Below, in pieces: positions 17,701-50,085 of a stretch of DNA of 64,000 bases. The notes beneath the pieces are model-generated. The model saw only the letters and a list, made by a program, of their open reading frames with translations, was not told the DNA's origin and searched no databases. The DNA is from Manis javanica (lineage: Eukaryota; Chordata; Mammalia; Pholidota; Manidae). The DNA is taken from contig NC_133159.1 in NCBI RefSeq assembly GCF_040802235.1, forward strand, positions 75,132,501 through 75,196,500, in the 5' to 3' direction. The position numbers were made by a program, and so were the translations under genes. Numbering within the stretch: the first letter of the stretch is position 1; the number at the start of each line of letters is the position of its first letter.

Positions 17701-18622
17701 TCAAGCAATATATGGAGACAAATGACAACAATAACTCAGCACCACAAAATCTGTGGGACGCAGTAAAGGCTGTGCTAAGAGTGAAGTATATTGTAATACA
17801 GACTTACCTTAGGAAAGAATAATAATCCAATATGAACAGTCTAAATGCATGAATTTAGAAAAGGAAGTTAATGAAGTTAAAACTAGAAAAGGAAGAACAA
17901 ATGAGGCCCAAAGTCACTAGAAGGAGGGAGATAATAAAGATTGGGGCAGAAATAAATAAAATTAAGAAGAATAAAGCAATAGAACAAATCAATAAGAGCA
18001 AGAGCTGGTTCTTTGAGAAAATTATCAAAATAGATAAACTCCTGGCCAGAATTACAAGAAAAAAAGGGAAGTCTACACACACACACAATCAGAAGAATCA
18101 GAAATGAAAAAGGAAAAATCACTATGGACACCACAGAAATACAAAGAATTGTTAGAGAATACTATGAAAAATTATACACTAACAAATTGCATAATCTAGA
18201 AGAAATGGCCACTTTCTAGAAAAAGAAACTTCCAATGCTGATCTAGGAAGAAACAGAAAATCTGAACAATTAGCAGCAACAAAATTGAATTTGTAATAAA
18301 AAAAACTACCTAAGAACAAAACTCCTGGTGCAGATGGATTCACTGCTGAATTTCATCAAATACTTAGTGAAGACCTAATACCCATCCTCCTTAAAGTTTT
18401 CCAAAAAGTAGAAGAGGAGAAAATACTTCCAAATTCATTCTTTGAAGCCAGCATCACTCTAATACCAATAGCAGGCAAAGACACCACAAAAGAAGAAAAT
18501 TACAGACCAATATCCCTGATGAAAATAAATGCAAAAATACTCAAATATTAGCAAACCAAATTAAAAAATACATCAGAAAGATCATCCATCATTATCAACT
18601 AGGATTAATTCCAGGGATGCAA
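14785..18622 (+). mobile_element. 3'-truncated L1, plus strand, 5' half
   Basis: The L1 5' end 'aaagatggcggtgtgagagg' at 14788 starts a 5'UTR to about 15900. ORF1 remains follow at about 15900-16630, and ORF2 from about 16930. ORF2 breaks off near 18622, just after a 'CCAGGGATGCAAG' landmark of the reverse-transcriptase region. From there the sequence belongs to another L1 in the opposite orientation. Losing the 3' half while keeping the 5' end is the reverse of normal L1 truncation and points to a later deletion or recombination. Confidence 0.9.
16211..16630 (+). pseudogene. L1 ORF1 C-terminal fragment
   Basis: A 139-codon open frame covers the L1 ORF1p C-terminal region, with 'LQARREWHNIFNAMKQKGL' and the following 'RILYLERLSFKFEGG'. 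ORF1p is the RNA-binding, trimeric coiled-coil chaperone of L1. The N-terminal coiled-coil part upstream is out of frame, so the protein is not complete. Confidence 0.85.
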
Positions 18623-21600
18623 GATAGTTGCCCTCCATGCCCATTTTGTTGAGAGTTTTTATCATGAATGGATATTGAATTTTGTCAAATGCTTTTTCTG
18701 CATCTATGGAGATGATCATGTCGTTTTTGTCCTTTTTGTTGATGTAGTGGATGATGGTGATGGATTTTCGAATGTTGTACCATCCTTGCATCCCTGGAAT
18801 AAATTTTACTTGATCCTGATGGATGAACTTTTTGATGTATTTTTGAATTCAGTTTGCTCATATTTTGTTGAGTATATTTGAATCTTTGTTCATCAGGAAT
18901 ATTGGTCTGTAATTTTCTTTTTTTGTAGTGTCTTTGCCTGGTTTTGGTATTAAAGTCATGCTGGCTTCATGGAATGAGTTTGGAAATATTCTTTCATAGT
19001 CTCCTTTTTGGAAAACTTTAAGGACGATGGATATTAGGTCTCCACTAAATGTTTGATAAAATACAGTGTTGAAGCCCTCCAGTTCAGGGATTTTGTTCTC
19101 ACATAGTTTTTTGATTACCAATTCAATTTCGTTGCTGGTAATTGGTCTGTTGATATTTTCTGTTTCTTCCTGGGTCAGCCTTGGAAGGTTGCATTTTTCT
19201 AGAAAGATTTCCATTCCTCCTAGGCTATCCAGTTTGTTAGCATATACTTTTTCATACTATTCTCTAATAATTCTTTGTATTTCTGTGGTGTCCATACTGA
19301 TTTTTCCTTTCTCATTTCTGATTCTGTTTATGTGTGTAGACTCTCTTTTTTTCTTGAAAAGTGTGGCGAGGGGTTTATCTGTTTTGTTTATTTTCTCGAA
19401 GAACCAGCTCCTGCTTTCATTGATTCTATTGTTTTATTATTCTCGATTTTATTTATTTCTGTTCTAATCTTTAATATGTCCTTCCTTCTACTGACTTTGG
19501 GCCTCATTTGTTCTTCTTTTTCTGGTTTCATTAATTGTGAGTTTACACTGTTCATATGGGATTGTTCTTCTTTCCCGAGATAGGCCTGTATTGCAATATA
19601 CTTTCCTCTTAGCACAGCCTTCGCTGCATCCCACAGATTTTGTGGTGTTGAATTATTGTCATTTGTCTCCATATATTGCTTGATCTCTGTTTTTATTTGG
19701 TCATTGATCCACTGATTATTTAGGAGCATGTTATTAAGCATCCATGTGTTTGCGGGCTTTTTCGTTTTCTTTGTGTATTTGATTTCTACTTTTATATCTT
19801 TGTGATCTGAGAATCTGGTTGGTAGAATTTCAATCTTTTTGAATTTACTGAGGCTCTTTTTGTGGACTAGCATATGATCTATACTTGAAAGTGTTCCGTG
19901 TGCACTTGAGAAGAATGTGTATCCTGATGCTTTTGAATGGAGTGTTCTGTGGGTGTCTGTTAGGTCCATCTGTTCTAGTATGTTGTTCAGTGCCTCTGTT
20001 GCTTTACTTATTTTCTGTCTGGTTGATCTGTCCTTTGGAGTGATTGGTTTGTTGAAGTCTCCCAAAATGGATGCATTGCATTCTATTTCCTCTTTTAATT
20101 CTGTTAGTATTTGTTTCACATATGTATGTGATCCTGTGTTGGGTGTATAGATATTTATAATAGTTATATCCTCTTGTTGGAATGACCCCTTTATCATTAT
20201 GTAATGTCCTACTTTGTCTCTTGTGACTTTCTTTGTTTTGAAATCTATTTTGTCTTATACAAGTACTACAACTCCTGCTTTTTTCTCCCTGTTAGTTGCA
20301 TGAAATATCTTTTTCCATCCCTTTACTTTCAGTCTCTGTATGTCTTTGTGTTTGAAGTGAGTCTTTGAAGGCAGCATAAACAGGTCTTGTTCTTTTACCC
20401 ATTCAGTGACTATATGTCTTTTGATTGGTGCATTCAGACCATTTATGTTTAGGGTGATTTTTCAATAGGTATGTACTTATTGCCATTGCAGGCTTTGGAT
20501 TTGTAGTTACCAAAGGTTCAAGGGTAATTCCCTTACTATCTAACAGTCTAATTTAACTCAGTATGTTATTACAAACATGATCTAAAGGTTCCTTTTTTTT
20601 TCTCCTTGTTCTTCCTCCTCCATTCTTTATATATTAGGTGTCATATTCTGTACTTTATCTGTCCATTGATTGACTTTGGGGGTAGTTTATTTGATTTTGC
20701 ATCTGCTTAGTAATTAATTTTTCTACTTTGCTGTGGTTTTATTTCCCCTGGTGACAGCTATTTTGCCTTAGGAATACTTCCATCTATAGCAGTCCCACCA
20801 AAATGCACTGTAGGTGGTTTGTGGGAGGTAAATTCTCTTAGCTTTTGCTCATCTGAAGATTGTTTAATCCCTCCTTCAAGTTTAAATGATAACTTTGCCA
20901 GGTAGAGTATTCTTGGTTTGGGACCCTTCTGTTTCATTGCATTAAATCTATCATGCCACTTCCTTTTGGCCTGTAAGGTTTCTGTTGAGAATCTGATGAT
21001 AGCCTGATGGGTTTTCCTTTTTATGTGATCTTTTTACCCTCTCTAGCTGCTTTTAAAAGTCTGTCTTTATCCTTGATCTTTGCCATTTTAATTATTATAT
21101 GCCTTGCTGTTGTCTTTCTTGAGTCCCTTGTGTTGGGAGATCCGTGCACCTTCATTGCCTGAGAGACTATTTCCTCCCCCAGATTGGAGAAGTTTTCAGC
21201 AATTTCCTCCTCAGTGACACTTTCTTTCTCGTTTTCTCTCTTTTTCTGGTACCCCTATAAGTGAATACTGTTCCATTTGGATTCGTCACACAGTTATCCC
21301 AATATTCTTTCATTCTTAGAGATCCTATTTTCTCTCTGTGCCTCAGCTTCTTTGTATTCCTGTTCTCTAATTTCTATTCCATTGTCTGTCTCTTCTATTA
21401 CATCGAATCTGCTTTTACATCCCTCCCTTGTGTGTTTCATTTCAGATATGGAATTTCTTAATGATTGAATCTGCATCTTAAATTGTTCCTGAGTTCTTGA
21501 TTATTTTTCTGTACCTCTGTGAGCATGTTTATGATTTTTATTTTGATATCTCTTTCAGGAAAATTAGTGAGTTCAGTTTCATTTCACGTTTTTTTTCTGG

Positions 21601-22582
21601 GGTTTGTAAGATTTTGGTCTGAACCAGGTTCCTTTGATGTTTCATAATTCAGTGTGATGCCCTCTAGTGCCCAGAAGCTCTAGTCTCTGGAGCTGCTCAG
21701 CCCCTGGAGTGAGGTTGGGGGTCACAGGGGAGTGGTGCTTGTGCCTGGGGGGAAGAAAGAGCTGCTTCCTGCTTCCCGGCTGCAGTGCCTGTCTCCACTG
21801 GTAGAGCCAGTGGGCCGAGTACACAGTTGTAAGCCCCTGTGCTTTGCATGTGTAGCTGTGGTAGGTGCGGCTTCCCTCTGGCTGGCTTGACGCCAGCGCA
21901 GTGACTGCCAGTTTGCAAGCCTGTGCCAGTAGGTCAGGAGGAAAGTGCAGCAGGTTGCATGTCACAGTGGAGGGCATTGGAGCTGAGTAGCCAGTCAGGG
22001 AGATGGAGTGCCGGAAGCTGCTCAAAGTTCTCAACCTGCCAGGCAGAGTGTGCCCAGTCAACCTTGTCCACCTATCTCTTCTCCTGTGCAGTAAGCTCTG
22101 TGCAATCCCCCGCTTCAGCAGCCCTCTCACTGCTAGGAAGCCTTTCAGACCACCCACTTTTCCTTTGTCCCAGGGCAGTCCAATGTGGATTCCTGTCCTC
22201 CACAAATGGCTGGAATCTCACCTCAGTCTTTCTACTATTCTACCTGTCTTACCTTTCCAATCCCACTAATCTCCAGAGCACCATGCCATGTAGGTTTGTG
22301 CTCCAAAGCACATCTCCAGGGCTGGGTGTTCAGCAGTTCCAGGCTTCCAACCCCTCCCCCCTCTGTTTCTTTTCCTCCCGCTGGTGAGCTGGGGTGGGGG
22401 AAGGGATTGGGTCCCACAGGATCCTGTTTCGTGAGGTCTGCTCTGTCTCCAGGTGTATGCAGTCTGGTGCAGCCTTCTTTCTTGTTGCTCTTTTAGGATT
22501 AGTTGTATTAACTATATTTTCATACTATGTGTGATGTTGGGAGGAGTTCTGTCTCACCTCTCATGCCACTATCTTGAATCTC
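18623..22582 (-). mobile_element. 3'-truncated L1, minus strand, 5' half
   Basis: The 5' end lies near 22580 ('AAGATAGTGGCATGAGAGG' on the minus strand), the 5'UTR to about 21600, ORF1 about 20850-21580, and ORF2 from about 20550 leftwards to the junction at 18623. It covers almost the same part of L1 as the plus-strand copy at 14785, extending only about 150 bp further into ORF2. The two form a large imperfect inverted repeat. Confidence 0.9.
19388..20197 (-). pseudogene. L1 ORF2 endonuclease-domain fragment
   Basis: This 269-codon open frame is the longest in the window and is the apurinic-type endonuclease part of L1 ORF2. Conserved pieces visible are 'INIYTPN' near the start, 'LGDFN', and 'RFSDHKDIKVEI', the last holding the catalytic SDH. 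After it comes the linker with 'LWDAAKAVLRGKYIA'. The upstream end of ORF2 and the whole reverse-transcriptase end are out of frame or absent. Confidence 0.88.
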
Positions 22583-24719: not shown

Positions 24720-24793
24720 CTAACAGGAATTCTGACCCAATTTCATTTGTGATTTCAGAATTTTAAATCCTTTTTTAAGCATTTCTTCTTGGA
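24720..24793 (-). pseudogene. GBP exon 11 remnant, copy C
   Basis: Read with the phase of the intact copies this gives 'VQEEMLKKGF', like the start of GBP exon 11, then departs from the family and reaches a stop at 24720-24722. The base before the first codon's TC is missing ('ATAG|TCC' instead of 'GTAG|GTCC'), so normal splicing shifts frame into a TGA after 12 codons. Its 3' flank matches that of exon 11 copy A ('atatacctcaaaaatgag'), and the intron to its right is homologous to intron 10 of copies A and B. This terminal exon looks dead. Confidence 0.7.
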
Positions 24794-25061
24794 CTATAAA
24801 TAAGAAAGTTCACTTTTGTATTTAACACCATCAATTAAGCAAAGAATATCTGTCTATTTCTCCATCATCATAGTAATCTTTGATGGGTTCAATATTTCCA
24901 GGTATTTGGACCTGTCAGTAACAGTATCCATTGCTTGTAACTTCCTAAGATTTGTTCAGGAACTTCTCACTAAGTGGGGAGATGGTGGGGCTATGTCCAG
25001 CCTGAGAACTATCACAGTTCCAGTGCTAATGCTAATGATGCTTTTTGGGAGGGAATGTAGG

Positions 25062-26034: not shown

Positions 26035-26228
26035 CTTCAGCTTCTGCTCCAGCATCCTTTCCTGCTCCCTCAGAAGTTCTTCTCTTTCTCTCTCCATCTC
26101 ATCTTTCAGTTGAGCTAAGTTCTCTTGGAAGTGTCTCTCTTCAACTTCCTTGATTTTCTGCAGCTCTTTTTGCATCTGTCTTTGTAGCTCCCATCCTTTC
26201 TCAGTTAGCTCTTTCTTGGCCTGCTCAG
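26035..26228 (-). CDS. GBP4/6-like: GBP exon 10, copy C (orphan terminal-exon cassette)
   Basis: This 194-bp open exon has exactly the length of exon 10 in the intact gene. It is bounded by an AG acceptor on its right and a GTAAG donor on its left, and starts in the same phase (last two bases of an Ala codon). It reads AEQAKKELTEKGW and ends REQERMLEQKLK, a charged helix like the family's C-terminal helical region. Its partner exon 11 (24720-24793) is broken, and no exons 2-9 of its own lie nearby. It could be a fossil of a lost GBP gene or an alternative exon of the gene at 33518-43558. Conserved length and openness favour recent constraint or youth. Confidence 0.65.
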
Positions 26229-26789
26229 CTGCTCCAAAAACATTTTCATGAAGAGAAGAAAACAACAGTCAAGTCTTAAATTAATTCTGTAGTATTTTGT
26301 TTTAATACTACTGTAAATTTGACCTTGTCTTACATTAAATCTAACATGTTTTTTTCCCCATTTCTCTAAATTAATCTGATTAAAATTACGTTTGTGTTTA
26401 GTATGTCAAACACTAATGTTTGGTAATGTTTTTCTCTTGAAATTTTTTTGAAAAAAAACTAAGGAGGGATAACTGCATACTTTTAAGGACACAGCCTGTG
26501 AATTATTGTCTTTTGAAAGATCGAAATCAATGCAGGTCCAGAGGCTGATGTCCAATTCCAAGTCACTGGTATCAAAAAATATTTTAACTCTTACCCTCTC
26601 AAAGGTAGAATGAATTGTGGCCAAATATAGGGCACTGCTTTGTTGGTCTTATACTTCAAGTTAATGTCTAAAAAACTCTAGCTTTGAAAGCAATGTGAAT
26701 GGATTCTGAACTGCAACTTTACTGTTAAGTTCCCACGCCTGGAGAAGTTAATTTCAGCTCATCATGTGATACTCAATTTGTACAATAAA

Positions 26790-27222: not shown

Positions 27223-27426
27223 TCAGAACCTCATCCCTACACCAAAAGACTTACCAGGACTTGGCATCTCTATACCTAAGACACTGCTAATCACATCAAA
27301 GAGCCACGAAGTAAATGAGCGTTCATTTTTTTTATTTGCTGTAATCTCTTTTCTCAGTTGCTGTATCTCTGTACACATCTTCTCAGATTTCTTCTTAAAT
27401 CCTTCATTAAGCAGTTCCTGTTGGAC
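27223..27426 (-). CDS. GBP4/6-like: GBP exon 11, copy B
   Basis: This open terminal exon has 67 codons plus TGA. It begins after the acceptor 'TGTAG' with [17 protein letters not shown], identical to copy A, then diverges after ITANKK and ends [13 protein letters not shown]. The first part lies in the perfectly duplicated tract; the rest differs from copy A but stays in frame, with three more codons. At 27249-27254 it contains a GTAAGT (minus strand) in phase 1, able to act as a donor into the next exon 10 copy. It lacks a CaaX box. Confidence 0.68.
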   Translation of the reverse strand, partial: VQQELLNEGFKKKSEKMCTEIQQLRKEITANKKNERSFTSWLFDVISSVLGIEMPSPGKSFGVGMRF

Positions 27427-28348
27427 CTACACAAGAGGAGTCCATTTTGAAAATACCCAATTATCAAGAGTAAGAATTTTGTTCAGCACCTTCACCATGT
27501 AAGGACAGTGTCTACTTCTCTATCACCTGAGAATGCTCTCTCATGAGTTTACCCAGTATTTCCACACATCTGGTCCTCGATAGTAGGAGTAGCCATGGCT
27601 TCTAACTTCCTAGAATTCCCTCAGCACCATCTCACTAAAAGAGGATGGGGTCAGGCTAGGTCATACCTGAAAACTCTCCTTATATGTGTTCCAGCTCTAA
27701 GGATGCCCCTTGGGAGGGAATGTAGGATGAACTCTAATTACTGCTCAGTTCTACTGAGGTAGCATGCACACACACATCTAACAAATCATGGGAAATGCTG
27801 ACCCGCCATAGAACATTGGTTACCCAGTGTCAGCTTAAGTTAGAGAAAAAATTTTCCTCTGTACTTTGTAGGATGACTCATGCAGACCTAGATACAAAGT
27901 AAATTTTAGAGCTTTTGGAATTCTGTGTTTCATATCAGGTCTAATCTGATACTTAAGATAGGATGGAGTCTTTCAGGTCTGTTTGATGGTTGAGCCAAGA
28001 ATCCTAAGGACTAGGGGACTAAGGCTCTATTTAACTGGGGCTCAAGGAGGCCATCCTGCAATCAACACAAATAGCAGCCCGGCACCCTGTGACGTTACTG
28101 TACACTACAAAGTCTAGTAACTACAGAAGGTGCAAGAGTCTTGTGGATTTAAGGACCTCAGCAGGATCCATACGGATTTGAGGTTTTCATGAATCACAGG
28201 TCTTTCAGGTTTTCCCCTGGGCTCATGATTTTGACTAGTTTGGGTCCTTCCCTTCCTGAGAAACCATCTGTGCTGAACTCTCTTTCAGGCACTACCCCGG
28301 CTCTGTGCAGACTTACCTTCAGCTTGTGCTCCAGAATCCTTTCCTGCT
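27331..28348. repeat. Direct repeat, B arm, reads identical to 33620-34637
   Basis: Comparing the two arms line by line I found no mismatch and no indel over about 1,018 bp; the offset stays 6,289. The left edge falls inside exon 11 and the right edge inside exon 10. Beyond both edges the paralogous sequence is clearly diverged. Confidence 0.88.
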
Positions 28349-28510
28349 TTCTCAGACAGTTTTCTCTTTCTTTTTCCATCTCCTTTTTCAGTTGAGCTAA
28401 GTTTTCCTTGAAGTGTCTCTCCTGAACTTCCATTTTTTGCTGCAGCTCTGTCTGTATCTGTGTTAGCAGCTCCAGTTTCTTCAAATCTGCTTCCTTCTTG
28501 TCCTGCTCAG
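28317..28510 (-). CDS. GBP4/6-like: GBP exon 10, copy B
   Basis: A 194-bp open exon between a 'GGAACAG' acceptor and a GTAAG donor, phase as in the intact gene. It reads AEQDKKEADLKKLELL and ends [11 protein letters not shown]. Its last 32 bp belong to the tract identical to copy A. The rest is closer to copy C ('ERHFKENLAQLKKEME' against 'ERHFQENLAQLKDEME'), and the intron to its right also matches copy C, not copy A. So B and C share a source, and A and B were homogenised later over part of their length. Confidence 0.68.
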
Positions 28511-28764
28511 CTGTTCCACAAACGTTTTAGAGAGACAAGAACAGAAATGTCAGGTCTGCTTATTTTATTCTGCAGTTATTTATTTGTTTTGATACTATTG
28601 TAAATTTGACCTTTTGTTACATTAAATCTTCTAACATCTTGTTTTCCATTTCTTTAAATTACTTTAATCAAAATTAAGTTTGTGTTTTTGTATGTCAAAC
28701 TCTAATAATCTTTGGTAATCACTTTTCAATATTTAAACTTTTGTTAAAAGAAACTAATATGGGG

Positions 28765-31700
28765 GTTCTGGTTTAAGATGGCAATGTATAAAGATCCTGA
28801 ACTCACCTCATCCCATGGATACAACAAATCTACAGCTATATATGGAACAATATCCTTTGAAAGAATCCCCCAAAGTAGCTAAGTGACTCCTATACATTGG
28901 GAAAAAGAGAAAAAACCCACTTTTAAGTGGTTAGGAGAGACTGAGACATAATCTTACCATAAACTCCACCCCTGGCACCAGGTCTCTACAATCAGGAAGG
29001 AACTAAAAAACCTGGAGTTTCTTCCTGAGGAGCAAAGGGTTGGAACCCCACATTGAATACCCCAACTTTAAGACCTGCACCTGAGATGTGAGCCCCCAAA
29101 ACACCTAGCTTTGAAAGTCAATGGGGCTCACATTGACAAGACACACAAGGCTATAGGAAACTGAAAAATAGTTCTTAAAGTGCTTTCATACTTGGACTTG
29201 TCCTGGGGACTAGTGCAGAGGCGGCTGATTGAGAGGCACCCACACTTTATGTGAAAAAGGCTTATTTGGTTATCCTAAAGCAATGGTCTGAGGAGTGAAG
29301 GAATTCTCCTTGGACACTTTGCAATGGTCGCTAAAGGGGTTTGGGTTCCTAGGACTGATAAGACTATAACTGGAGAGCGAGTTCTTGGTAGGCTACCACC
29401 CCTGGGGCACTGCAAAGACAGCAGATGGAAATAAATGGTCAATATTTTTATGAAAGAAGCATCTTTCCATGTCCTGGAGCTTTCACCTCAGGGGCAGGCT
29501 TCAGGTTTGGCACATATCTAGGGGCCTATGGAGGCTTCTGCAGCAATAGAGTTTGGCAGATGTCATCTTTGCACTCTCCCTCTGCCTCACTTCAGTCCAC
29601 TAGTATCTTCATCCTCATTAGTGCCCTGTTTTGAGTGGGTGCCCCAGAGGACACTCCTAGTCACCTGGCTTTGGTAGCCAAAGGGACTTACACTTGTGGT
29701 CCCAAGGACTATATATACTTCTTACTTTAAAGGCTGTTGTCAGAGGTTCTAGCTTCCAATCAACCTGGATCTAGATGCTGACTGAGATCCTTTAAGACAC
29801 TGAGAGGTCTTGGAACATCCTTAAATACTGAGAGCCACTAAAAATAGAATAGGATACTTGTACAATCAAAAAGGTTTGAGGGACAACCAATAGCTAGGGC
29901 AGGGTTGAATGATAAGATTCATTTCCTACATGAAGGCCACTTCAAGATTGGAAAAAGTGGTGGTTTTATCAAATGCATGGAAACCAACATAAGGAGTTGA
30001 GGAAAATGAAGAAACAGGAATATTTTCCAAATGAAAAAGCAAGACCAATGACGTAACAGATATATACAGAACATTCCATCCAAAAGCAACAGAATACTAC
30101 CTTCTTCTCAAGTGCACATTCTCCAGGATAGATCACGTTAGCCCACAGCACAAGTCTCAATAAATTTAAGAAGACTGAAATATTTATAGGAAGGTTCATA
30201 GTGATAGGTGCCTACATCAAGAAATAAGAAAAATCTCACACCATCTAACTTTACACTTCAAGGAACTAGAAAAAGAAGAACAAAGACCAGAGTTAGTAGA
30301 ACAAAGGAAATAACAAAGATCAGATTGTAAATAAATGAAATAGAGACTTAACAATAGAAAAGATTGAAACTGGGAGCTGATTATTTTTGAAAGAAAAAAC
30401 AAAGTTGAAAAACTTTTAGCTAAGGTCACCAAGAAAAAAAGGCAGAGCTCAAATAAATAAATTCAGAAATGAGAAATATTACAGCTGATAGGACAAAAAG
30501 AAAAAGAATAAGAGACTACTGTGAACAATTTATACACCAACAAATTGGACAACCTAGAAGAAATGGATACATTTCTAGAAACATAACAACAGATCAAGAC
30601 TGAATCAGGAAGAACAGAAAATCCAAGCAGATTGAACACTAGAAAGAAAATTGAATTAATAATCAAAAAACTCCCAACAAAAATCCAGAACCAGAGAGTT
30701 TCACCAGTGAATTCTACTAAATATTTAAAGAAAAATTAATACCAATCCTTCTCAAACTCCTTCAAAAAATAGAAGAGGAGGGAATTACTTCCACAGTCAT
30801 TTAACAAGGCCAGTATTACAGTATTACCCTGATTAGGACAGACTAGGACAACACAAGAAAGGAAATTACAGGCCAATATACCTGACGAACACAGATGCAA
30901 AAATTTTGAACAAAATATTAGCAAACTGAATTCAATACAAGTATCATATACCATGATTATGTGGAATTTATTCCAGGTATGCAAAGATGTTTTAACATCC
31001 ACAAATCAATCAATATGATACACCATATTAATAAAATGAAGGATAAAAATCATACAATAATCTCAATAGGTACAGAAAAAGCATTTGACAAAATACAATA
31101 TACAATTATGATAAAAATTTTCAACAAAGTGGGTATAAAGGGAATGTACTTCAACATAATAAAGGCTGTATATAACAAACCCAAAGCTAACATCATATTC
31201 AATGGTGAAAAGCTGAAAGCTTTTTCTCTTAGATTAGGAACAAGATCAGGATACCCACTCTGGTCACTTTTATTCAACATAGTATTGGAAGTCCTAGTAA
31301 AGCAAGAAAAGAGAACTAAAAGTCATCCAAATTGGAAGGGAATAAGTAAAATTATCATTATTTATAGATGACATGACACTATATATAGAAACAACTATAA
31401 AGTCTTCTAAGAAAAATTAAAACTAATGAACAAATTCAATGAAATTGCAAAGTACAAAATCAGTATATAAAAATCTTCTTTGTTTCTGTACACTAATAAC
31501 AAATAACCAGAAAGAGAAATTAAGAAAACAATTCCATTTACAATTGTATCAAAAAGAATAAAATACTTAGGAATAAATTTAACCAAGGAGGTGAAAGATC
31601 TATACACTGAAAATTATGACATTGATGAAAGAAACTGAAGAAAAGACAAATAAATGGAAAGATATACAATATCCATGGATTGGAAGAATATTGTTAAAAT

Positions 31701-33418
31701 GTCCATAGTACCTATAGTGATCCACAGATTCAACGCAATCCTTATCAAAATTCCAATGGCATTTTTTCTCACAGTAGAACAAACCATTCTAAAATTTGCA
31801 TAGAGCCACAAAAGACCCCAAATAGTTACAGCAACCTTGAGAAAGAAGAACAAAGTAAGCATCACACACCCTGATTTCAAACTGTATTACAAAGCTAGAG
31901 TAATCAAAACAGTATGTTACTGACATAAAAACAGACACATATAGATCAATGGAATCAAATTGAGAGTCCAGGAATAAACCCATTCATATATGGTCAATTA
32001 ATTTATGACATAGGGGCCAACAATATACAAAGGGGAAAGGACAGTCTCTTCAATAAATGGTGCTGGGATAACTAATTGGTTACATGCAAAAGAATGAAAC
32101 TGGACTACTATCTTACACCATACACAAAAATTAACTAAAAGTGGATTAAAGACTTGATTGTAGACCTGAAACCATAAAACTCCTAGAAGAAAATACAGGG
32201 CAAGTTCATTGACATTGGTCTGGGAAATGAGTTTTTAGATTTGACACCCAAAGCAAAGACTGCAAAAGCATAAGTAAATAAATGGGGCTATATCAAACTA
32301 AAAAGCTTCTGCACAGCAAAGGAAACCATCAACAAATTTAAAAGTCCAAATAGGAGAAGATATTTGCAAATCATATATCCAATAAGAGGCTAATATCCCA
32401 AATATATAAAGAACTCGTACAACTCAATAGCAAAAAAACAAACAATCCAAATAAAATAAGAGCCAAGGATCTGAATAGATATTTTTTCAAAGCAGCCATA
32501 TGAATGGCCAAGGGTTACGTGTTCTCAGTATCACTAATCATCAGGAAATGCAAATCAAAACCACAATGAGATAATACCTCAAGTTACAATGGCTATTATG
32601 AAAAAGACAAGAAATAATAAGTGCTGGCAAAAGTGTGGAGAAAAGTGAATTCTTGTGCACTTTTGTGGGAATGTAAAGTGTTCCAGCCATTCTGGAAAAC
32701 AGATTCCTCAAAATATTAAAAATATAACTACCATATGATTCGTTAAATGCTACTTCTGGGCACTTATCCAATGAAAACAAAAATACTAACTTGAGAAGAT
32801 AAATACACTCCCACGGTCATTATTTACAATAGCTATGATATGGAAACCACCTAGGTGTCCACTGACGGATGAATGGATAAAGAAAATGTCTGTATGTGTG
32901 TGGTGTGTGTACACACACACATACATACACTTACAAAGAATATTATTCAGCTATAAAAAAGAAGGAAATCTTGCCACTTGCGATAACATGGGTGGACCTT
33001 GAGAGCATTATACTTAGCGAAATAAGAGAAAGACAAATACTGTATGATCTCATTTATATACGGAATCTGAAACACACAAAAAAGAGAAACCAAGCTTATA
33101 GGTTGCCAGAGGTGGGAGGTGAGGGGTGGGCAAGAAATAGGGTCAAAAGTTACAAACTTCCAATTATAATATAAATTCAGTCTTAGGGATGTAATGTATA
33201 GCATGGTGACTCTAGTTAATAATACTGAATTGCATTTTTGAAAGTTGCTAGCAAAGTAGATCTTAAAAGTTCTCATCACAAAAAAACATTTTTTGAAACT
33301 AGGGTGATGAATGTTAACTAGACTTATTAAGGTGATCATTTCACAGTGTATACAAATACTGAATAATTCTCTTGTCCACCTGAAATGTATATGTTTTATG
33401 TGGATTATGCTTCAATGA
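28765..33418 (+). mobile_element. Older L1 with 5' end but ORF1 deleted, plus strand
   Basis: The 5' end 'ggtttaagatggcaatgtat' is followed by a 5'UTR to about 30040. The sequence then jumps into the ORF2 endonuclease region ('acagatatatacagaacatt'), so ORF1 and the start of ORF2 are missing. Reverse transcriptase motifs are readable at 30961-31371 (EKAFDKIQY), and the 3'UTR ends near 33418. It lies between GBP terminal-exon copies A and B, antisense to them, and ends about 100 bp from the copy A stop codon. Confidence 0.82.
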
Positions 33419-33517
33419 ACAGTAAGATGACATATACCTCAAAAATGAGCCACAATTTCACAAAACAAGCTTCATTTTATAATTTTCTAAGGAAATCTGG
33501 GTCTCCTTCATGTGAGC

Positions 33518-33715
33518 TTAGAACCTCATCTGTATACCAAATGACTTACCAGGACTTGGCACATCTACACTTAAGAAACTGCCAATTGTATCAAAAATCC
33601 TTGAACCAAATGAGTATTTTTTATTTGCTGTAATCTCTTTTCTCAGTTGCTGTATCTCTGTACACATCTTCTCAGATTTCTTCTTAAATCCTTCATTAAG
33701 CAGTTCCTGTTGGAC
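33518..33715 (-). CDS. GBP4/6-like: GBP exon 11 (copy A), residues 556-620
   Basis: It starts [10 protein letters not shown] after a 'TGTAG' acceptor and ends at TAA (33518-33520) after [13 protein letters not shown]. It encodes the last helix of the effector region and a short tail with no prenylation motif. A GTAAGT at 33544-33549 (minus strand), inside the PGKS codons and in phase 1, could serve as a donor; the stop is used if it is not spliced. Confidence 0.85.
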   Translation of the reverse strand, partial: VQQELLNEGFKKKSEKMCTEIQQLRKEITANKKYSFGSRIFDTIGSFLSVDVPSPGKSFGIQMRF

Positions 33716-36700
33716 CTACACAAGAGGAGTCCATTTTGAAAATACCCAATTATCAAGAGTAAGAATTTTGTTCAGCACCTTCACCATGTAAGGACAGTGT
33801 CTACTTCTCTATCACCTGAGAATGCTCTCTCATGAGTTTACCCAGTATTTCCACACATCTGGTCCTCGATAGTAGGAGTAGCCATGGCTTCTAACTTCCT
33901 AGAATTCCCTCAGCACCATCTCACTAAAAGAGGATGGGGTCAGGCTAGGTCATACCTGAAAACTCTCCTTATATGTGTTCCAGCTCTAAGGATGCCCCTT
34001 GGGAGGGAATGTAGGATGAACTCTAATTACTGCTCAGTTCTACTGAGGTAGCATGCACACACACATCTAACAAATCATGGGAAATGCTGACCCGCCATAG
34101 AACATTGGTTACCCAGTGTCAGCTTAAGTTAGAGAAAAAATTTTCCTCTGTACTTTGTAGGATGACTCATGCAGACCTAGATACAAAGTAAATTTTAGAG
34201 CTTTTGGAATTCTGTGTTTCATATCAGGTCTAATCTGATACTTAAGATAGGATGGAGTCTTTCAGGTCTGTTTGATGGTTGAGCCAAGAATCCTAAGGAC
34301 TAGGGGACTAAGGCTCTATTTAACTGGGGCTCAAGGAGGCCATCCTGCAATCAACACAAATAGCAGCCCGGCACCCTGTGACGTTACTGTACACTACAAA
34401 GTCTAGTAACTACAGAAGGTGCAAGAGTCTTGTGGATTTAAGGACCTCAGCAGGATCCATACGGATTTGAGGTTTTCATGAATCACAGGTCTTTCAGGTT
34501 TTCCCCTGGGCTCATGATTTTGACTAGTTTGGGTCCTTCCCTTCCTGAGAAACCATCTGTGCTGAACTCTCTTTCAGGCACTACCCCGGCTCTGTGCAGA
34601 CTTACCTTCAGCTTGTGCTCCAGAATCCTTTCCTGCTCCCTCAGAAGGTCTTCTCTTTCTCTCTTCATCTTCTCTCTCAGCTGCACCATATGTTCCTTGA
34701 AGCTTTTCTCTTGAACCTCCAATTTTTGAAGCTGCTCCTGCTGTTTCTGTCTTAGCATCTGCTGTTCCTTCTCAGCAGCCTCCTTCTTCAACTGCTCAGC
34801 TGTTCCACAAATATTTGAGGAGGGAAGAAACACCTCTGAGACTGAGACTATCTTCCTTAGCTCAGATATAAAACTGACTTTGAAAATGTGGCTGGAAAAC
34901 CTCTGAATTCAGTGGGTCACCAAAAGCACATTTCAGAATGACAAAGAGAAGGCTCTGTCTGCCTGCCTGATATAAAAAGTCAGCTCTGATTGTTTTATTT
35001 ATATTTAGCAGGGCTGTTGCATAGAAGGAGAGGAAGCTTTTGGTAACGGGATGTGTTCGCTCTCACCCCTGTCACAAAGCACTGCAGGGAACTACCCACT
35101 CCACTGGGAGCTCAGCCCTGCTGCTGTACCTGCCAGGGCCTTCTGCCCACTCGTGAGGGCTATGTCTCCCTGCAGGATGGATTCTTCTATTGCCATCTGA
35201 GACTGTTGGAAGTGCTGAAGGATGTCATTTGCCTGAGGAAACCAGGAGCAAAGACATGTCATGTAACAAAGCTCTTGTATCTTTTCAGAGAAATTAGTGT
35301 TCTATAAGTCACAAACCTGGCCTTATAAATTTTTCACCTTCTTTATCTCCCATGCTAACTTTCCTTCTATGGCTCCACCTTAAATTCTGAGTTCTTTTGT
35401 GAGCATGAAAACCCCCCATTACAGCCTCCTTCCTAGCACTCCATCCTTCTCTCCAGTGAAGACTTCCCCTACCCACCCAGGTTATAGCCAACCAGACTTA
35501 CATGCATCTATAAACAGGTAACTCTGTTTTTTCAAAATTTCTTAATCTTTCTTTCTGCCGGAAGGTTCGCCTACCCTTTCTGAACTAGGATAACAATTAC
35601 AGATACTTAATCTTGTACCCTGTATTTGCTCTTCCAGGGTGTTTTCCTAAGCTGCCTTTCCAATTTCAAAGAATGACACACATTCTGAGCTGCCATCCCG
35701 CCTCTCCACTTGCTGGCAGCATGACTCTGAGCAACTTATTTACTTCTTTGTGCATCGTCTTTCTCAACTGCTTATCAGTAGTATATAAATCATAATATTC
35801 TGAGTATTGACAATCTAACAAATGTACCTAACTACAGGTGTCTTATTATATGTGTGGTGTAGTAAGGGATAATACTGAGTTTATCAGCCATTATTATTGT
35901 TATCATCATAATAATCAGCATCACGATTTTTAACACCTATTCATGAATAGTATAATCATACAGTTGTCTACTTATTTGTATTTCAGGTAACATCATCATC
36001 TTGTGAACAAAGGTTGGGTCTTTAATCTTTGTATCCTCTATACTTAGCTCAGCAACAATTACCTTGTTTGATAACAAAAATATTCTTTCATCTGGAATTC
36101 CCAATTCTATACCTTTTTTTGGGGAAGGAATATTATGATCTCTTCAAGAATATAAAACTAATTGTGGATATGACAATTAAAAGTGTGGAGATATTGCTAT
36201 GCTCTGCTTTCCCCAAAAATACTGCTATTATTGTAGATTTTCAGAAGGTGCAACAAACATCCTCTGACTGTGGTTCTGGCTACCACCCCTCCTTCCTTGC
36301 TTTTCACCTTAACTCCTTTCCTGAGCACGAGATTATAGTTCCATTCGACCTTGTTCTTTGCTTCCTTGTACAGCTCATGCCCTCCAGGAACAGAATAAAT
36401 TCCTGCTGAAATATTTTCCATTAGAGCCTTTGAAAGCTTATCAAGTATAGCCTGGCAGTATTTCACAGATGCCTCTTCATTCTGAAGCAAGAATTCTTCC
36501 TTCTTTTTCTCTATGGCTTCCTGCCAGGGAAATGAGGAGAAATCCAACAGAAAGAAGTTTTGTTAGAGGGAAAGGTCCCACTTTGATCATATTGGAAGGG
36601 ACAGTCTGATTGCTCGAGTGGACTGGAACATGGAAGGAACCAGGCGTCGGGAGACTTGCTTTAGTTCCAGTTCCAACCAGTTCTCGGTGTGACTTATACA

Positions 36701-39700
36701 CAGTCCCTTAATTGTCGTAGACTCAGGCTCACCATCTGTAAACTGAACTTCAAGCTTCCTTCTGCTGTAATACGAGTACCACTGACCCAACTGACAGCAC
36801 GAGCCAAAGAAAGCTGAATTGTGGCTAGATGTAGTTTCCTCAGAGAACTTGAGTTGTTGTGGAAATGTATACAAAGAAAATCAACTACTCAATAATGACT
36901 GAAATGTACTCTGAACAGTGTTTGGAACTCTTCATGAATTCTTCTACTGAGGATTCAAGTGTGTGAAGATAAAAGAACATAATTTTTTTTCTTGAACTTG
37001 TAAATACAATCCAAGGGACTGGGCACCGTCAACAACCCTAATGAAGTGGAGGCTCCTCAGAGGTCTGGAGATGAGAACTCAACCAGGCTAATACCTTGTT
37101 TTTAGCTTTGCAATATCATAAGCAGAGCACATGGCCACCCTGGGCTGAACTTCTGACCTACAGATTGGTGAGCTTATTCATATTCATTGTTTTAAACTGT
37201 TAAATTCATGGTAATTTTTAATACAGCAATATAATAAAATACCCATGTTATAGTAAAAGCATGAACAGTAGCCCTGTAGAGCCCTGTCACTCACAACAAT
37301 CCATACTCCTTCTATCACGGCAAGGAGAGGATCAAAAAGAGAGACTCTAAGCATCATTCCAGAAAGGCGGGAATCAGGAGTGACAACTGCCAAGACAGTT
37401 ACCATGAGTTTCTGCTGGAACTCCCGTTTGTCATCTTTGAAAGAATGCTCCATGAAGATTGCAACAGCTTCCTGCTCACAGGCCGTGTGCACGTCCAGCA
37501 GCTCCTGGAGCGTATCTGTGGGGAGGCTCACTCGCTGGGCCATCTGCTCACTGTAGTGGTTGGCTGCCTTCTGCACAGCCGCTGAGTTCTCACTCTGGGC
37601 CAAAGTTATCACTGCATTCTCCAAACAAGGAACCATTCCCCTCCTGATGGCATTCACGTAGGTCACCACCAGAGTCCCCAGTCCTGAATGAGCCAGGTAT
37701 TTGTTGATAAATATCAAGTTACAACTCATTGTTTTATAGGATTTAGGGGCCAACGTTCTGAAAATTACTAAAAACCAATTTGGGAAAAACTTATTTTTTT
37801 TTTATCCGACTACATCATTCTAATATTTTCTTCTTCATTCTTTATGATTCTCTAGCTCATAAATTAAAATTTAAATTACTGATTCCCACCAATATGAGTA
37901 GGAGTTTCCTGGAAAAATACGTTCAAATTCAAGAAGAAAACAGGAGTAGATCAGACAGGCAAAGTAAATGTAATAAATGAATCCAACTACGTATTTGTGG
38001 GGCACGATTACAAATGAAAATGTGGGTCCTCTTGTAAAAAAAAATCAAGAATTTTAAGACAGTGACAGAACATTAAACCAAGCACGGACCCATCTCTGCA
38101 CAAGACACCGTATGACCACTGTCCCTGAACCTAATATTAAATTTACTCTCAATGAGCTTGCAGACCCATAATCTACTTTTTATTTCTGGACTGGAATCAA
38201 CTCACAAAGTATCTTCTAAATCCTTTATCTCATAGGATTTCTCAATACACATTTAACTTTAACTCCATTTTCTCTTTATAATTAGTGGATTCAGTACTTA
38301 AGATATATTAGGTTTCAGCAAACTCTCACCCAGGCAGACTTTAATTAATAAACATGTTTGTCTTTTTGTGGCATGAACATTTGCTTCTCTACATTCACAT
38401 ATGATGTAAACAAAATTATTAATAAACCCAGAATATAATCAGAGCTCTACTACACACACTGACATAGAGATAAGCTTTGGGACAAAGGTGACTCACGGTT
38501 CCCGGTGACAATGATTCCCTCTCTCAGAGTCTTGGGCCTTCCATGGGCAAAGATATAGGAACAAAAATTTTTTGATTGCATCCGGAAATTACTATCCAGA
38601 TGCTCTTCTGGCACATTATCAATATGGAATAACATGTATTTGTCATTTGTTGGCCGGTCAAAGACAAAACACTTCCGTTTTGGAAAGAACAGCCTGATAC
38701 ACTCTCTAGGCATGTTGGAGTTGTGGATTTGTTGATTCGTGCCTGCAGAAGTAGAAAAAGAGCAATCCTTCAATGGCCAGCCTTCAGACAAGGTATGATG
38801 TTATAAGAAAGATAACATGAAGGATTGACAATCTTACTGGAAAGATATGTCAACATATCTTTAGACCTTTTAGGGTATAAATATCCTTTCTGTGATTGAT
38901 GTAACTCTACAGGCACTAATAAAATATATTTACTGTTTTACTATTACTACATTACTATTGTTACTGTTTTACATTTTAAAAACAAGATAATTTGATTTCA
39001 CTGTAATTTTGTTTAGCAACTTCCAATCTGTTAAGCTATTTTTTTTTTTCAATGAAGAACAGGAAGAGCACTTAACAGGGTACAAAAGTATGTAGACATC
39101 AGGAAGTTCCAGCATTGATTGCTATCTGGAAAATTTTTTTCATGGTACTAATTAGTCTAAAATCATCTCTTCTAATACTAGGCACTAGTTTCCTTGGTGA
39201 GCTTGAACTCCAATTGCTGGAGGTTTTAAAGTAATAATAACCCCACAAAAACCAATCACCTCTAGCAAGGGCCTAAATCTAAACTCAATTAAACATACAT
39301 GTCAAATTCTGAATGACGAGGCACAGTTGATCCCACCCACCAAATAACTTTCCACACCCAATCCATGCTCTGATACCTGGAATCAGCTTCAAGGCATCCT
39401 CTAGGTACTCATCTTCAGTAATAGGGGAGTCATTTATTTTCATCTCCAGCATGAAATCCCTTAGAGTCCAAATGAAGTCTGGAAAGAAACTCACAAACTC
39501 TACAGAGTCTTCCAGAGTGCCATCAGAACTTGAGGAGGACTTTATCCTGATTAATTCAGCGAGTTCAGTAATAAAGCTGGGAACTTAGCTAAGGAAGAAA
39601 TATTTTACACCACAATTTCAGATATCACATAGAAATAAACTGTATAAGCATGAATTTTGTCCTGTGTCTCACTGCTCCCCAACCATGACAACTGAGACAC

Positions 39701-42700
39701 AGGAAAGGTGATGGCCTCAGTTGCCACTCCCATGTACTCAGTAAAACTCAGTGGTTCAGTTCCTGGAAGGATACTGCAATTGCTCAAGGGCCAGGTGGTT
39801 GATGGTGCCCATGCTGTTGTAGATCAAGATGCTGCTCAGAAGCACAGTTAGAGCAAAGATCCACGAGTCATTCTTAGGATCACCCTAGAAAGCACATCAG
39901 ACAGGGACTTAGAAGGCCACTCTGCATTCATTCTGTTGTTCATTTACTATATTGTGACTATGTATTGCCGAATAGTAGGGCAAAGAAGGCAGGTTTTTAA
40001 GATATCATAAATTCAATCTCATTTTCACTATTAACATAGTCCTCTATCAAGGCTTCAGTTTCACAGCTATTAAAAATGAACAACAGTCAATGTGTACAAA
40101 AATGTTTAATACAGTGTCTAGAACATAGTAGGTGCATAGTAATAAGTGAGCAATTATTCCTTTAGCAAATTTTTTATGACATCTGTATTTGTGACAAAAA
40201 TGTTATTTAGAAACTTCAATAACTATTCTCTGGGCACCCGCAACATGCCAGACACTGCACTTAGTTGCACATCCATGATAGTCCCTGCCCTTTAGATGAC
40301 TTTATGAAGGAGATAAACATGTCACATGTAAATGCAACCAAGATTATAATTTCTTGCACGGGAACAAGTATTGCACAACTTCAGAGCAAGAAGTGACTAC
40401 GTCCAACTGGTCTTACGATGGCAATAAAGTAAAAACTGGTGTATTTTAAAGAATTGACAGAATGTGAACATGTAGATCATCCAGGTAGAAGGATAAGTTA
40501 TTTCTGTTTCCAATGTGGAAAATGAAGCTGGAAACAAGATTCAGGGTAAGACCTGAAGGTCTCTGTAGGCCATAAAATAGAATTAGACACTCTCAAATCA
40601 CTCTATAATTCTAAAATTAACAAGTAGTTTTGCTGCCATCAGCAGTTTATAATATAATATGGCATATTTTGTTCCCTTGTACAAGCACAGCATCTGGATT
40701 CTATGCTTACCAGACTTGATCTGGAAGACTGGAAAACTTTTTCATAATTCTGGGGGAAAAAACATTTTCTCAAGTCCTTATTTTATTATCCCTAGAAGTA
40801 TCCCACTTTGTTTTTTTAAAGCAGGACTTGGACCAAACAACAAACTATTTCAACATCAAGAGTATAATTTGGGTTTTATACTGAAGTTACTGTAGAGAAC
40901 TTTAAAACTGAGCACAGAATCTCTAACTCCTTTTGTCCCTCTACAGTTATGGAAGCCATATAAATGCCTACTGTGGCTACTTTGAACACAGACTGAAAAT
41001 AACATAAAATAAGGAGGAGAAATGATTTTTTGCACTTAATACTATTTTCAGTATGTCCAGGTCATTCTTTTATAGAAGTCAGAGAAGAAGTAATCACCAA
41101 AACCAGACACTTGAGCTAAAACCTTTGTGAATGTTCCTGGTGCAGCTGAAGCTTTTTCTGAAGAGTATTTAAATAAAATATTTCACTGAAATTCTATTTG
41201 ACAGCTTCTACTTTAATTCCATTCTTCCTATATACTTTAATGGTAACTCCTATCAACATCACAGGTTACAGTTCAGATATTATTTCTTCCAGAAAGCTTT
41301 CTCTAAGCCACATGACTGGATTTGTTGCCTACATCTGTGCATGGCACCCTGTACTGATTATACCAGGTTCTTGTCTCCTACAGCAGGCTCTAGGCATTTG
41401 CCCTGTTTACTGCAGTACTGTAATTCTAAGTACAGAGCCCAGGATTCAGCTGTTCAGTAAGTATTTACTGAATTGTATATTTATGTAAGTATTAAAAATA
41501 AGATCTTGCACTAATATACCAAAATATTTGAGCTTACCAAGGAAGAAAGTTCATGGAAAAATAACTTAACCTCATATTTATAATTGGATTTATAGTTTGA
41601 AAGAATAGGTAACAGAATTTGAGTTGATGTAGCAAATCAAAAGACAAGTATAAATATAAGCCAAAGGCAAGTATGTCTGGCTTACCTTCTCCATATCACC
41701 GAGACCTTCTGTATCCAGAAGAACTAGGGTGTGGTTCGGCTTCATGGGGTGGGATACACACCACATCCAGATGCCCCTGGTTTCGCACCTCACTGTAGAG
41801 CCCAGCTGGAAGCCTACAGGAAAAGAAGAGAAAGCAATAAGAATACATGGGGATCCTTAGAGTTTAGTGGACTGAGGTTCAACCCCTAGTGGTGCTGAAT
41901 CAGAGGGGAGGTAATACAGCAGAAAACAAAAAAATGGCTGCATGGTCTGCATAGAGAGAAATGACTAAGGACTAATGGGACCATAGGCGGATTCTCCTGC
42001 AATTCAGTAAGGACTAAACAAGACAGCTGATTAAAAACAAAAAAGGACTTGAACAGACATTTAAAAAAATGGGATATACAAGTGGCAAGTAATATGAGAA
42101 AGGGTGCTCAACCTTATTTAGAGTGAGGCACACGACATATAATAAGTCATCACAACAGTAAAAGTTAAAAATATTTCTAAGAATGTGGCAATTCCTATTT
42201 ACTGCTAATAAACATGTAAACTGAATATAAAGTTGAAAAAGCCATTTGATATTATCTGGAAATCTTTAAGAAACACATACTCTGTGACATGGAAATTCCA
42301 TTCTGGGATATATTATATAAGTGAAGTTTGTATACACGAGCAACAGGACAGAATTACAACAGTATCTTTGACAACCTTGTTCATAAATGGTAAAAATGGA
42401 AATAATATAAATGTTCAATAATAAATGGATAAATAAATTATGGTATCTTCATATGACAGCATATTATAATGCAATGAAATAATGAAATTATAGCTACACA
42501 CTAAACACTGGATTAATCTTATAAATTTCTTGTTGAGCAAAAAAGAAGTAGGATATCAAAGAATACATACAATTTCATTTCATTTATATAAACTTTAAAA
42601 GCAGGCCAAAATAAAGTGCTCTGGAAATGCATAGACTGTAAAGCCATTTTTAAAAAGCAAGGAAGTAAGTACCACAAAATCAAAATAGATGAACACTAAT

Positions 42701-48960: not shown

Positions 48961-49704
48961 ATTTAATATTGTTAATTTTCATAAACTCTAAACGTAATCC
49001 TAAAATAGGTTATGCAAAAAAAGAGATAACCTCACAGTTTTAAAGCAACATCTATCGTATTTCTCTATTTGATAGATCAAACCCACATCTTAAACAATAC
49101 TGAAAATTTGAGCAACATGATAAACAAAATTGAAGCAATTATTTACTGCATAGATAAACTGTGCTAAAATGTGGTAGAAAGCATATATTCAGACTTAAAA
49201 GAATTTCAACCAAGCAGAGTGTGCTCATTTATCACGATGCAATATTAGTAAATAATAATGACAGGCTGAATAGAAATCCTGATATGTATCTAAATTTACA
49301 TTTTTTCTAAATAATCTGTGGGTCTAAGACTTCAAAAAGAAAACTGTAAATTATTTTAGCCTGAAAAATACCTTATATCAAATTTGTCGGATTGACACCT
49401 TGTATCAAATTTGTAGGATACAGCTAAATCACTTCTTATCATGAAATTAACAATGTTAAACCCATGTATCAAGGAAGAGTTAAGTATCATCAAAGAAATA
49501 GGAGATAAGAGGAGAACTAAGTGGAAATTTTGTAACTAAAAGTACAATCTAAATTTAAAACTCATCAACAGATGTGTTCAGTAGCAGAATGGGGAATACA
49601 GTGGAATGAATCTGTGAACTTGACGGTAGGGCCATAGAAATTATCCAATTTATTCACTTTGTGACTGTGTCACAGTTTGGTAATTTTTGCAGTATTTCTA
49701 ACTT

Positions 49705-49950
49705 TCATTATTATATTGAGTTGCTGCAATTGGATGATGAAACTTTAATGAATGAGGAGTTGCTTCTTATGGATGAGCAAAGCAAGTGGTTTCTTGAGAT
49801 AGAAACTACTTCTAGTGAAGATGCTGTGAATATTCTTGAAATGACAATAAAGGATTTAGAATATTGCATAAAACTAGTTGATAAGCAGCAGATTTTGAGA
49901 GGATTGACTCCAATTTTGAAACAAGTTTTACTGTGGGTAAAGTGCCTCAG
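49705..49950 (+). pseudogene. DNA-transposon-derived coding fossil (Tigger/pogo-like)
   Basis: An open frame within 49661-49966 reads [20 protein letters not shown] and then [20 protein letters not shown] recognise this as a transposon-encoded protein segment seen in many mammalian genomic translations, most likely of the Tigger/pogo group. The start and DDE core are absent. The frame is still open over 80 codons, which may be chance. Confidence 0.5.
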
Positions 49951-50085
49951 TTTTCTCATTGATTAAATCTGTTTGCTGTAATACCTCAAAGGGGTGTTGT
50001 GAGGACTACATTGATATCATTCAAATGGAGCACATTGTATAGAGTCTGTGGTTCCCTAGTAAATGATCAGTAAATATAAGATGTC
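49945..50085 (+). repeat. MIR SINE
   Basis: The order 'tgcctcagttttctcattga', 'ggggtgttgtgaggac' and 'tagtaaatgatcagtaaata' matches the 3' half of MIR well. Confidence 0.7.

Follow-up and report, generated by a model that had tools for sequence, protein, structure and literature searches.

A donor-like GTAAGT beside tandemly duplicated terminal exons in a guanylate-binding protein gene of Manis javanica

Introduction

Guanylate-binding proteins (GBPs) are interferon-induced antimicrobial GTPases whose C-terminal helices and tails help to set their location and assembly. In the immunoglobulin (Ig) mu heavy chain gene a composite terminal exon allows a switch between the secreted and membrane forms, and the use of tandemly duplicated exons as alternative exons is a known general class. 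We have analysed a 64-kb stretch of the Manis javanica genome (the window; contig NC_133159.1, positions 75,132,501 to 75,196,500) in which a GBP gene, termed gene A, is followed by two further copies, B and C, of its terminal part, and in which exon 11 of both A and B contains a GTAAGT resembling a 5' splice site. An earlier sequence-only reading had proposed that these sites could chain the C-terminal modules of A and B into one protein. Our analysis suggests that GTAAGT is probably a codon-derived decoy donor beside duplicated tail exons, and that it is read through by default.

The IgM switch is mentioned in passages of PMC3826338. In porcine GBP5, according to excerpts of PMC4446061, a point change creates an acceptor with a predicted truncation, and splicing at exon 10 alters the C-terminus. 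Parts of PMC12486975 state that the CaaX box was lost in GBP4/6/7. Among the matches listed in our literature search (titles and starts of abstracts), none described a GBP whose terminal exons are repeated in tandem or whose C-terminus is chained, and no paper was found that paired an alternative last exon with a guanylate-binding protein.

Results

Donor-like sites in exon 11

The minus strand of the window carries one intact GBP gene, A, in which splice sites and open frame were checked. Exons 2-11A of this gene join to 620 codons with a single stop, which is terminal. The features that bear on the donor-like sites are:

34606..34799, minus strand, exon 10A, phase 1 acceptor, donor AAG/GTAAGT
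33518..33715, minus strand, coding part of exon 11A, A protein ending in ...MRF
33544..33549, minus strand, donor-like GTAAGT in exon 11A, CTG/GTAAGT, 6.45 bits
28317..28510, minus strand, exon 10B, frame intact, acceptor AACAG/CTG, donor AAG/GTAAGT
27223..27426, minus strand, coding part of exon 11B, B protein ending in ...MRF
27249..27254, minus strand, donor-like GTAAGT in exon 11B, CTG/GTAAGT

Both GTAAGT sites are present where the sequence-only reading had placed them. It had described them as lying in the PGKS codons just before the stop; they do lie in these codons, but the cut falls within the Gly codon, and nine sense codons separate that codon from the stop. A cut at GTAAGT leaves a G, and exons 10A, 10B and 10C all start with CT and complete an Ala codon (GCT), so the proposed phase match is confirmed and is common to all three exon 10 copies. 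As had been claimed, joining 9-10A-11A-10B-11B gives an open frame of 742 amino acids with one terminal stop; the chain keeps 610 residues of A, drops the last 10 and adds 132. Unchained isoforms would have 620 amino acids (A) or 622 (B, via 9-10B-11B).

The would-be intron from 11A to 10B is 5,039 nt long and has inside it a large repeat and a donor-like site at 28806 that scores 8.2 bits. The exon 10B acceptor is of middling quality: its last 20 bases are 50% pyrimidine, compared with 55% for 10A and 55-90% for exons 3-9. A CTGAC, a candidate branch site, lies 39-43 nt 5' of exon 10B and is followed by a pyrimidine run.

Donor scores in bits were calculated with weights of the kind used in the literature. 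On both strands of the window 27 of 6,466 GT sites score at least as high as CTG/GTAAGT. Downstream of gene A five of 541 minus-strand sites reach this score: the donors of 10B and 10C, the exon 11B site and two non-exon sites at 28806 and 25312. No scored exon besides 11A and 11B has an internal donor site above 4.0 bits. GTAAGT as such is not enriched in the window (24 observed, 30.5 expected), and the exon 11A and 11B sites are two of the 24. When gene A was recoded synonymously with its own codons (4,000 trials), 9.6% of trials yielded a site this strong in exon 11 and 28.8% yielded one or more anywhere in the ten coding exons. The exon 11 site is strong, yet not beyond chance.

On the minus strand, a tract of 1,019 bp has the same sequence in unit A (34637-33619) as in unit B (28348-27330); it covers the end of exon 10, intron 10 and the first 97 of the 198 bases of coding exon 11A. 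The flanks of the tract are 73-78% identical (143/192 with one gap column, and 111/147 with 6 gap columns). Such identity would result either from recent gene conversion or from an assembly error; according to two GBP surveys, neither gene conversion nor recombination was detected in the data sets analysed there (PMC10859415, PMC10864436). As had been noted, the donor-like sites do lie outside the tract; their distances from its end are 69 bp (A) and 75 bp (B). The further argument, that their conservation is independent of the tract, is weak because the flank at the tract end is itself 111/147 identical, shuffling gives P 0.058 for the 19-base identical run around the site, and a single unit was copied to give both A and B. 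As copies, they need not have acquired the second GTAAGT in a second event. Of the case for chaining, then, the strong donor, the phase, an intact exon 10B with an AG acceptor and its own strong donor, and the open frame all stand, and the conservation argument is weak.

Unit A has a TATAAA 36 nt past the stop (33481) and 62 nt downstream of the exon 11A GTAAGT. Two AATAAA also belong to unit A, one at 28584 and one at 28569; in g3, a paralog described below, they are aligned with AATAAA that lie 268 and 283 nt past the stop. This pair stands 59-74 nt before exon 10B, where it has been kept, and has been lost before 10C. A transcript using the AATAAA pair would include the donor, the repeat and the signals up to 10B, all of which splicing from 11A to 10B would remove.

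Exon 11 in the paralogs

A search of the same genome showed that the window falls inside a GBP cluster on contig C4, with weaker GBP-domain matches on C1, C8 and C11. From fourteen stretches of 10 kb of C4, four other GBP blocks (g1, g3, g4 and g5) were compared, of which g3 and g5 have a match to A for each exon from 2 to 11. The best internal donor of exon 11 scores 2.3 bits in g3, 0.0 in g5 and -0.9 in a decayed orphan copy, compared with 6.4 in A and B. At the position aligned with GTAAGT, g5 encodes PGKL with GGC AAA CTT (FPGKLLG, where A has SPGKSFG) and g3 encodes FKL. On the simplest reading, the peptide PGK would be older than the donor, and GTAAGT (GGT AAG T) would be one spelling of PGK. 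The paralog comparison would leave the chaining idea alive while offering a dull reason for the site.

The orphan lies about 12 kb downstream of g5 (C4:75381080-75380001) and contains intron 10, a decayed exon 11 (C4:75380414) and 3' untranslated region (UTR). Intron 10 of A and B matches the orphan intron 10 (64% over 682) and has no match to intron 10 of g5 itself. Tail units may stand behind other GBP genes as well.

The whole genome was searched for exon 10 and exon 11, with retrocopies sought as fossil transcripts. Among the best candidates scored, six exon 10 copies were found at E <=0.1 (A, B, C, g1, g3 and g5), all within the GBP cluster, and the exon 11 search gave four cluster matches and one poor C9 match (E 0.7, 3 stops), none of them a clear retrocopy. 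A scan of viral contigs with exon 11B returned 8 pattern matches with no relative among them.

Structure and coding state of units B and C

Apart from the exons listed above, the units comprise:

28562..33517, minus strand, 3' region of unit A with the TATAAA at 33481, an L1-like element and the UTR end
26229..26462, minus strand, UTR end of unit B and acceptor region of exon 10C, AATAAA pair lost
26035..26228, minus strand, exon 10C, a third copy beyond those of the sequence-only reading, frame and splice sites intact
24755..24794, minus strand, exon 11C remnant, mostly deleted, one base missing at the acceptor

From the AG at 24794 the exon 11C remnant reads through 12 out-of-frame codons to a stop. 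The element in the 3' region of unit A, on the opposite strand and L1-like as judged by eye from its open frames, extends from about 33.4 to 28.8 kb; repeat DNA, also L1-like by eye, separates the UTR parts. DNA at 28756-28562, before 10B, aligns to the g3 sequence that immediately follows the exon 11 UTR match (72% over 199 columns, E 1.5e-29), and DNA at 26457-26281, before 10C, aligns to the same post-UTR place in g3 (65% over 192 columns, E 8e-13). Only the last 31-33 bp before 10B and 10C match intron 9 of gene A, an intron that matches g3 intron 9 over its full length (67% over 344). Because g3-type 3'UTR, not intron 9, precedes 10B and 10C, each unit runs from the exon 10 acceptor region to the 3'UTR, and the units are arranged head to tail. 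A tblastn search with the whole protein found no match to exons 2-9 between the units. A fourth unit, D (24660-23372), was considered and rejected; the matching DNA follows exon 11 in g3 and is hence the UTR of unit C itself.

Before the identical tract, pairwise identity among exon 10 of A, B, C, g3 and g5 is 63-76%; values for g1, whose row was two bases out of register, were left out. Exon 10A has 70-73% identity with B and C, against 71-72% with g3 and g5, which indicates that the duplication is old. A tree groups exons 10B and 10C with support of 91/92, which is not strong.

Synonymous changes account for 8 of 26 on the A branch of exon 10, 4 of 16 on the B branch and 6 of 21 on the C branch (neutral expectation 6.9, 4.3 and 5.6), and purifying selection was not shown by these counts on any of the three. 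Under neutrality, the probability of remaining free of stops is 0.40 for exon 10B and 0.31 for exon 10C. The B branch and the C branch each include one change that, placed alone on the inferred ancestral codon, would create a stop; neither exon has a stop. B and C are no more alike in exon 10 (124/163) than in the flank (183/233). Over the first 54 codons of exon 10, the ratio of nonsynonymous to synonymous substitution rates (dN/dS) against g3 and g5 is 0.25-0.35 for B and C and 0.20-0.26 for A, and dN is higher for B and C (0.31-0.39) than for A (0.25-0.27). Over the whole of exon 10, dN/dS for A-B, A-C and B-C is 0.45-0.56, which is relaxed.

Gene A and its surroundings

The upstream coding exons of gene A, each with splice sites and open frame, are:

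43558-43369, minus strand, E2
41813-41686, minus strand, E3
39884-39775, minus strand, E4
39576-39377, minus strand, E5
38742-38497, minus strand, E6
37683-37403, minus strand, E7
36520-36308, minus strand, E8
35232-35130, minus strand, E9

The gene A protein matches the Pfam families GBP (4.5e-117) and GBP_C (4.8e-118) over 263 of 264 positions of the GTPase domain and 297 of 297 positions of the helical domain. Its nearest solved structures are GBPs, the top match being GBP1 (query residues 1-586, E 2.6e-197). A CaaX box is absent from the C-termini of the A and B proteins, and gene A appears to be of the GBP4/6/7 type, as judged from this absence and from copies in the same genome. The gene is constrained, with dN/dS for E2-E9 of 0.26 against g3 (455 codons) and 0.30 against g5 (489 codons), and of 0.23-0.27 for E10 against these two.

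The E4 donor, GTATCC, is weak, and a pseudogene was considered for gene A; this was rejected, as the paralogs share GTATCCT or ATATCCTT and dN/dS is 0.26-0.30. Intron 4 (39577-39774, minus strand) begins GTATCCTT and has TTCCTTAGC 12-20 nt upstream of its end; in the paralogs it starts with GTATCCT in g1, g4 and g5 and with ATATCCTT in g3. We take these motifs to be the U12 (minor spliceosome) pattern, and the E4 donor is presumably U12-type. A literature search pairing U12-type intron with guanylate-binding protein found no paper.

Elsewhere in the window, a GBP exon 2 has left a remnant at 53761-53618, with 48 residues aligned at 56% identity. On the array's far side, C4:75129691-75125960 has matches to GBP exons 2 and 6 with stops inside exon 6, and is probably a decayed GBP gene. 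Two facing copies of an element that is L1-like by eye (14801-18623 and 18785-22563) form a large inverted repeat, 80% identical over 3.9 kb. None of 12 probes for short interspersed repeats gave a close match. A plus-strand open frame of 118 amino acids (49610-49966) resembles the end of a Tigger-type transposase.

Discussion

The explanation that we favour, and regard as likely, is a history of duplication and partial decay with an incidental donor in exon 11. Units A, B and C would stem from tandem duplication of the 3' end of a GBP4/6/7-type gene, a segment with roughly 30 bp of intron 9 followed by exon 10, intron 10, exon 11 and the 3'UTR. Later repeat insertions would have separated the units, C would have lost most of exon 11, and recent conversion would have made A and B identical over 1,019 bp, unless the assembly is in error. 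GTAAGT would be the spelling of a C-terminal PGK motif that is also present in g5, and the strength of the 5' splice site so formed would be incidental. In most transcripts the site is probably read through, giving the 620-residue protein, with polyadenylation in the UTR of unit A. Exons 10B and 11B are usable as an alternative pair of last exons, and a low level of splicing from the 11A donor to 10B is plausible. The sequence shows the anatomy, the copies, the strength of the donor, the open frame and the lack of the donor in the paralogs read; that read-through is the default, and the manner in which B is used, we infer from these features.

Several observations weigh against a merely incidental site beside idle copies. 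Within the span of gene A only three of 575 minus-strand GT sites reach 6.45 bits, namely the donors of E3 and E10A and the exon 11A site. By these weights the latter exceeds seven of the nine true donors of the gene (E2 and E4-E9, with E4 not comparable), and in U1 pairing energy it ranks below E2, E3 and E10A and above the other six. Of the five exon 11s read, GTAAGT is present in the two that are followed by an exon 10 copy (A and B) and absent from the three that are not (g3, g5 and the decayed orphan), so that GTAAGT kept merely as PGKS codons in genes lacking a downstream exon 10 was not found. The exon 11 tail as a whole, in which the peptide that should explain the site lies, shows no constraint between A and B (dN/dS 1.1 over 31 codons), and within 400 bp of stop A a scan for four polyadenylation hexamers found TATAAA alone. 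Lastly, exons 10B and 10C have neither stop nor indel, and there are nine indels between A and C in 592 bp of intron 10 and seven between B and C in 233 bp of flank. From this difference, both copies have probably spent a large part of their past as coding sequence, under relaxed constraint.

The intact frames bear most directly on the possibility that A and B are alternative last exons, with exon 9 joined to 10A-11A or to 10B-11B (or 10A to 11B) and GTAAGT having no role. This is compatible with the decoy donor that we favour. The frame, phase and splice sites of 10B and 11B would allow it, with 622 residues open, as would the indel-free state of 10B and 10C and their low dN/dS against g3 and g5; the higher dN of B and C than of A and the relaxed ratios among the three copies speak against it, and, owing to the identical tract, the two units cannot differ over the first half of coding exon 11. 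Taken together, these points leave such use a tentative possibility. A larger role for the donor would follow if exon 11A were a composite terminal exon of the Ig mu kind, either polyadenylated or joined by its donor to 10B-11B with loss of 10 residues, the stop and the signals, to give 742 residues. The layout has what this needs, a donor before the stop and polyadenylation signal and a downstream acceptor in phase; the in-phase 11A donor and the 10B donor are strong, all 742 codons are open, CTGAC and a pyrimidine run as well as the AATAAA pair precede 10B, only a TATAAA stands near stop A, and GTAAGT is restricted to the two exon 11s backed by an exon 10. On the other side, the PGK codons explain the site, the 10B acceptor is poorer in pyrimidine than those of 10A and exons 3-9, no exon 10 branch of A, B or C has a synonymous excess over neutrality, and the long intron holds a large repeat and the stronger site at 28806. 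We consider a composite exon unlikely, and a developed Ig-like switch, between a GBP of 620 residues and one of 742 residues that carries two C-terminal helix modules in series, with the donor kept through its overlap with PGK, somewhat less likely still.

Binding of U1 at GTAAGT could also act without splicing, by damping polyadenylation at A so that transcription would proceed as far as the distal signals or unit B. Passages of PMC3826338 report for papillomaviruses that U1 at a 5' splice site upstream of the signal inhibits poly(A) polymerase through U1-70K, and the 62-nt spacing from GTAAGT to TATAAA would suit such an effect. The GTAAGT of B would damp B as well, though, and TATAAA is possibly not a used signal; this reading seems to us highly improbable. 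Equally remote, and disfavoured, is the suggestion that B and C derive from separate GBP genes of which only the 3' ends survive, exons 2-9 having been lost. It could draw on the age of the copies, given the 63-76% identity of the exon 10s, but the DNA preceding 10B and 10C is GBP 3'UTR and not intron 9, and the tblastn search found no exon 2-9 match between the units.

With the decoy donor as the favoured reading, the locus is of interest on two counts. Three tail units in one gene would offer a route to changing the business end of a GBP without copying the whole gene, and the exon 11A donor defines one RNA junction (33550-28510) for tail chaining.

Compared with the GBP4/6/7 group, gene A is similar in having both Pfam domains near full length and no CaaX box, with full genes g3 and g5 in the cluster; it differs in the tandem repetition of its tail together with the 3'UTR, with three copies of exon 10 and two copies and one remnant of exon 11, and in the strong donor that its last exon contains. 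As in porcine GBP5, a splicing change at exon 10 would change the C-terminus, here through tandem copies and a potentially longer protein and not through a point change that creates an acceptor. The Ig mu gene likewise has a donor within its last coding exon, followed by a short tail, a stop and a signal, and an in-phase pair of exons downstream, whereas in gene A the downstream pair copies the upstream pair, the donor is strong, and the arrangement is known from sequence alone. With tandem exon duplication in general the locus shares in-phase copies behind the original, and it departs from that class in that the repeated element is a terminal two-exon unit with its UTR, in which chaining is possible only via the donor in the last exon.

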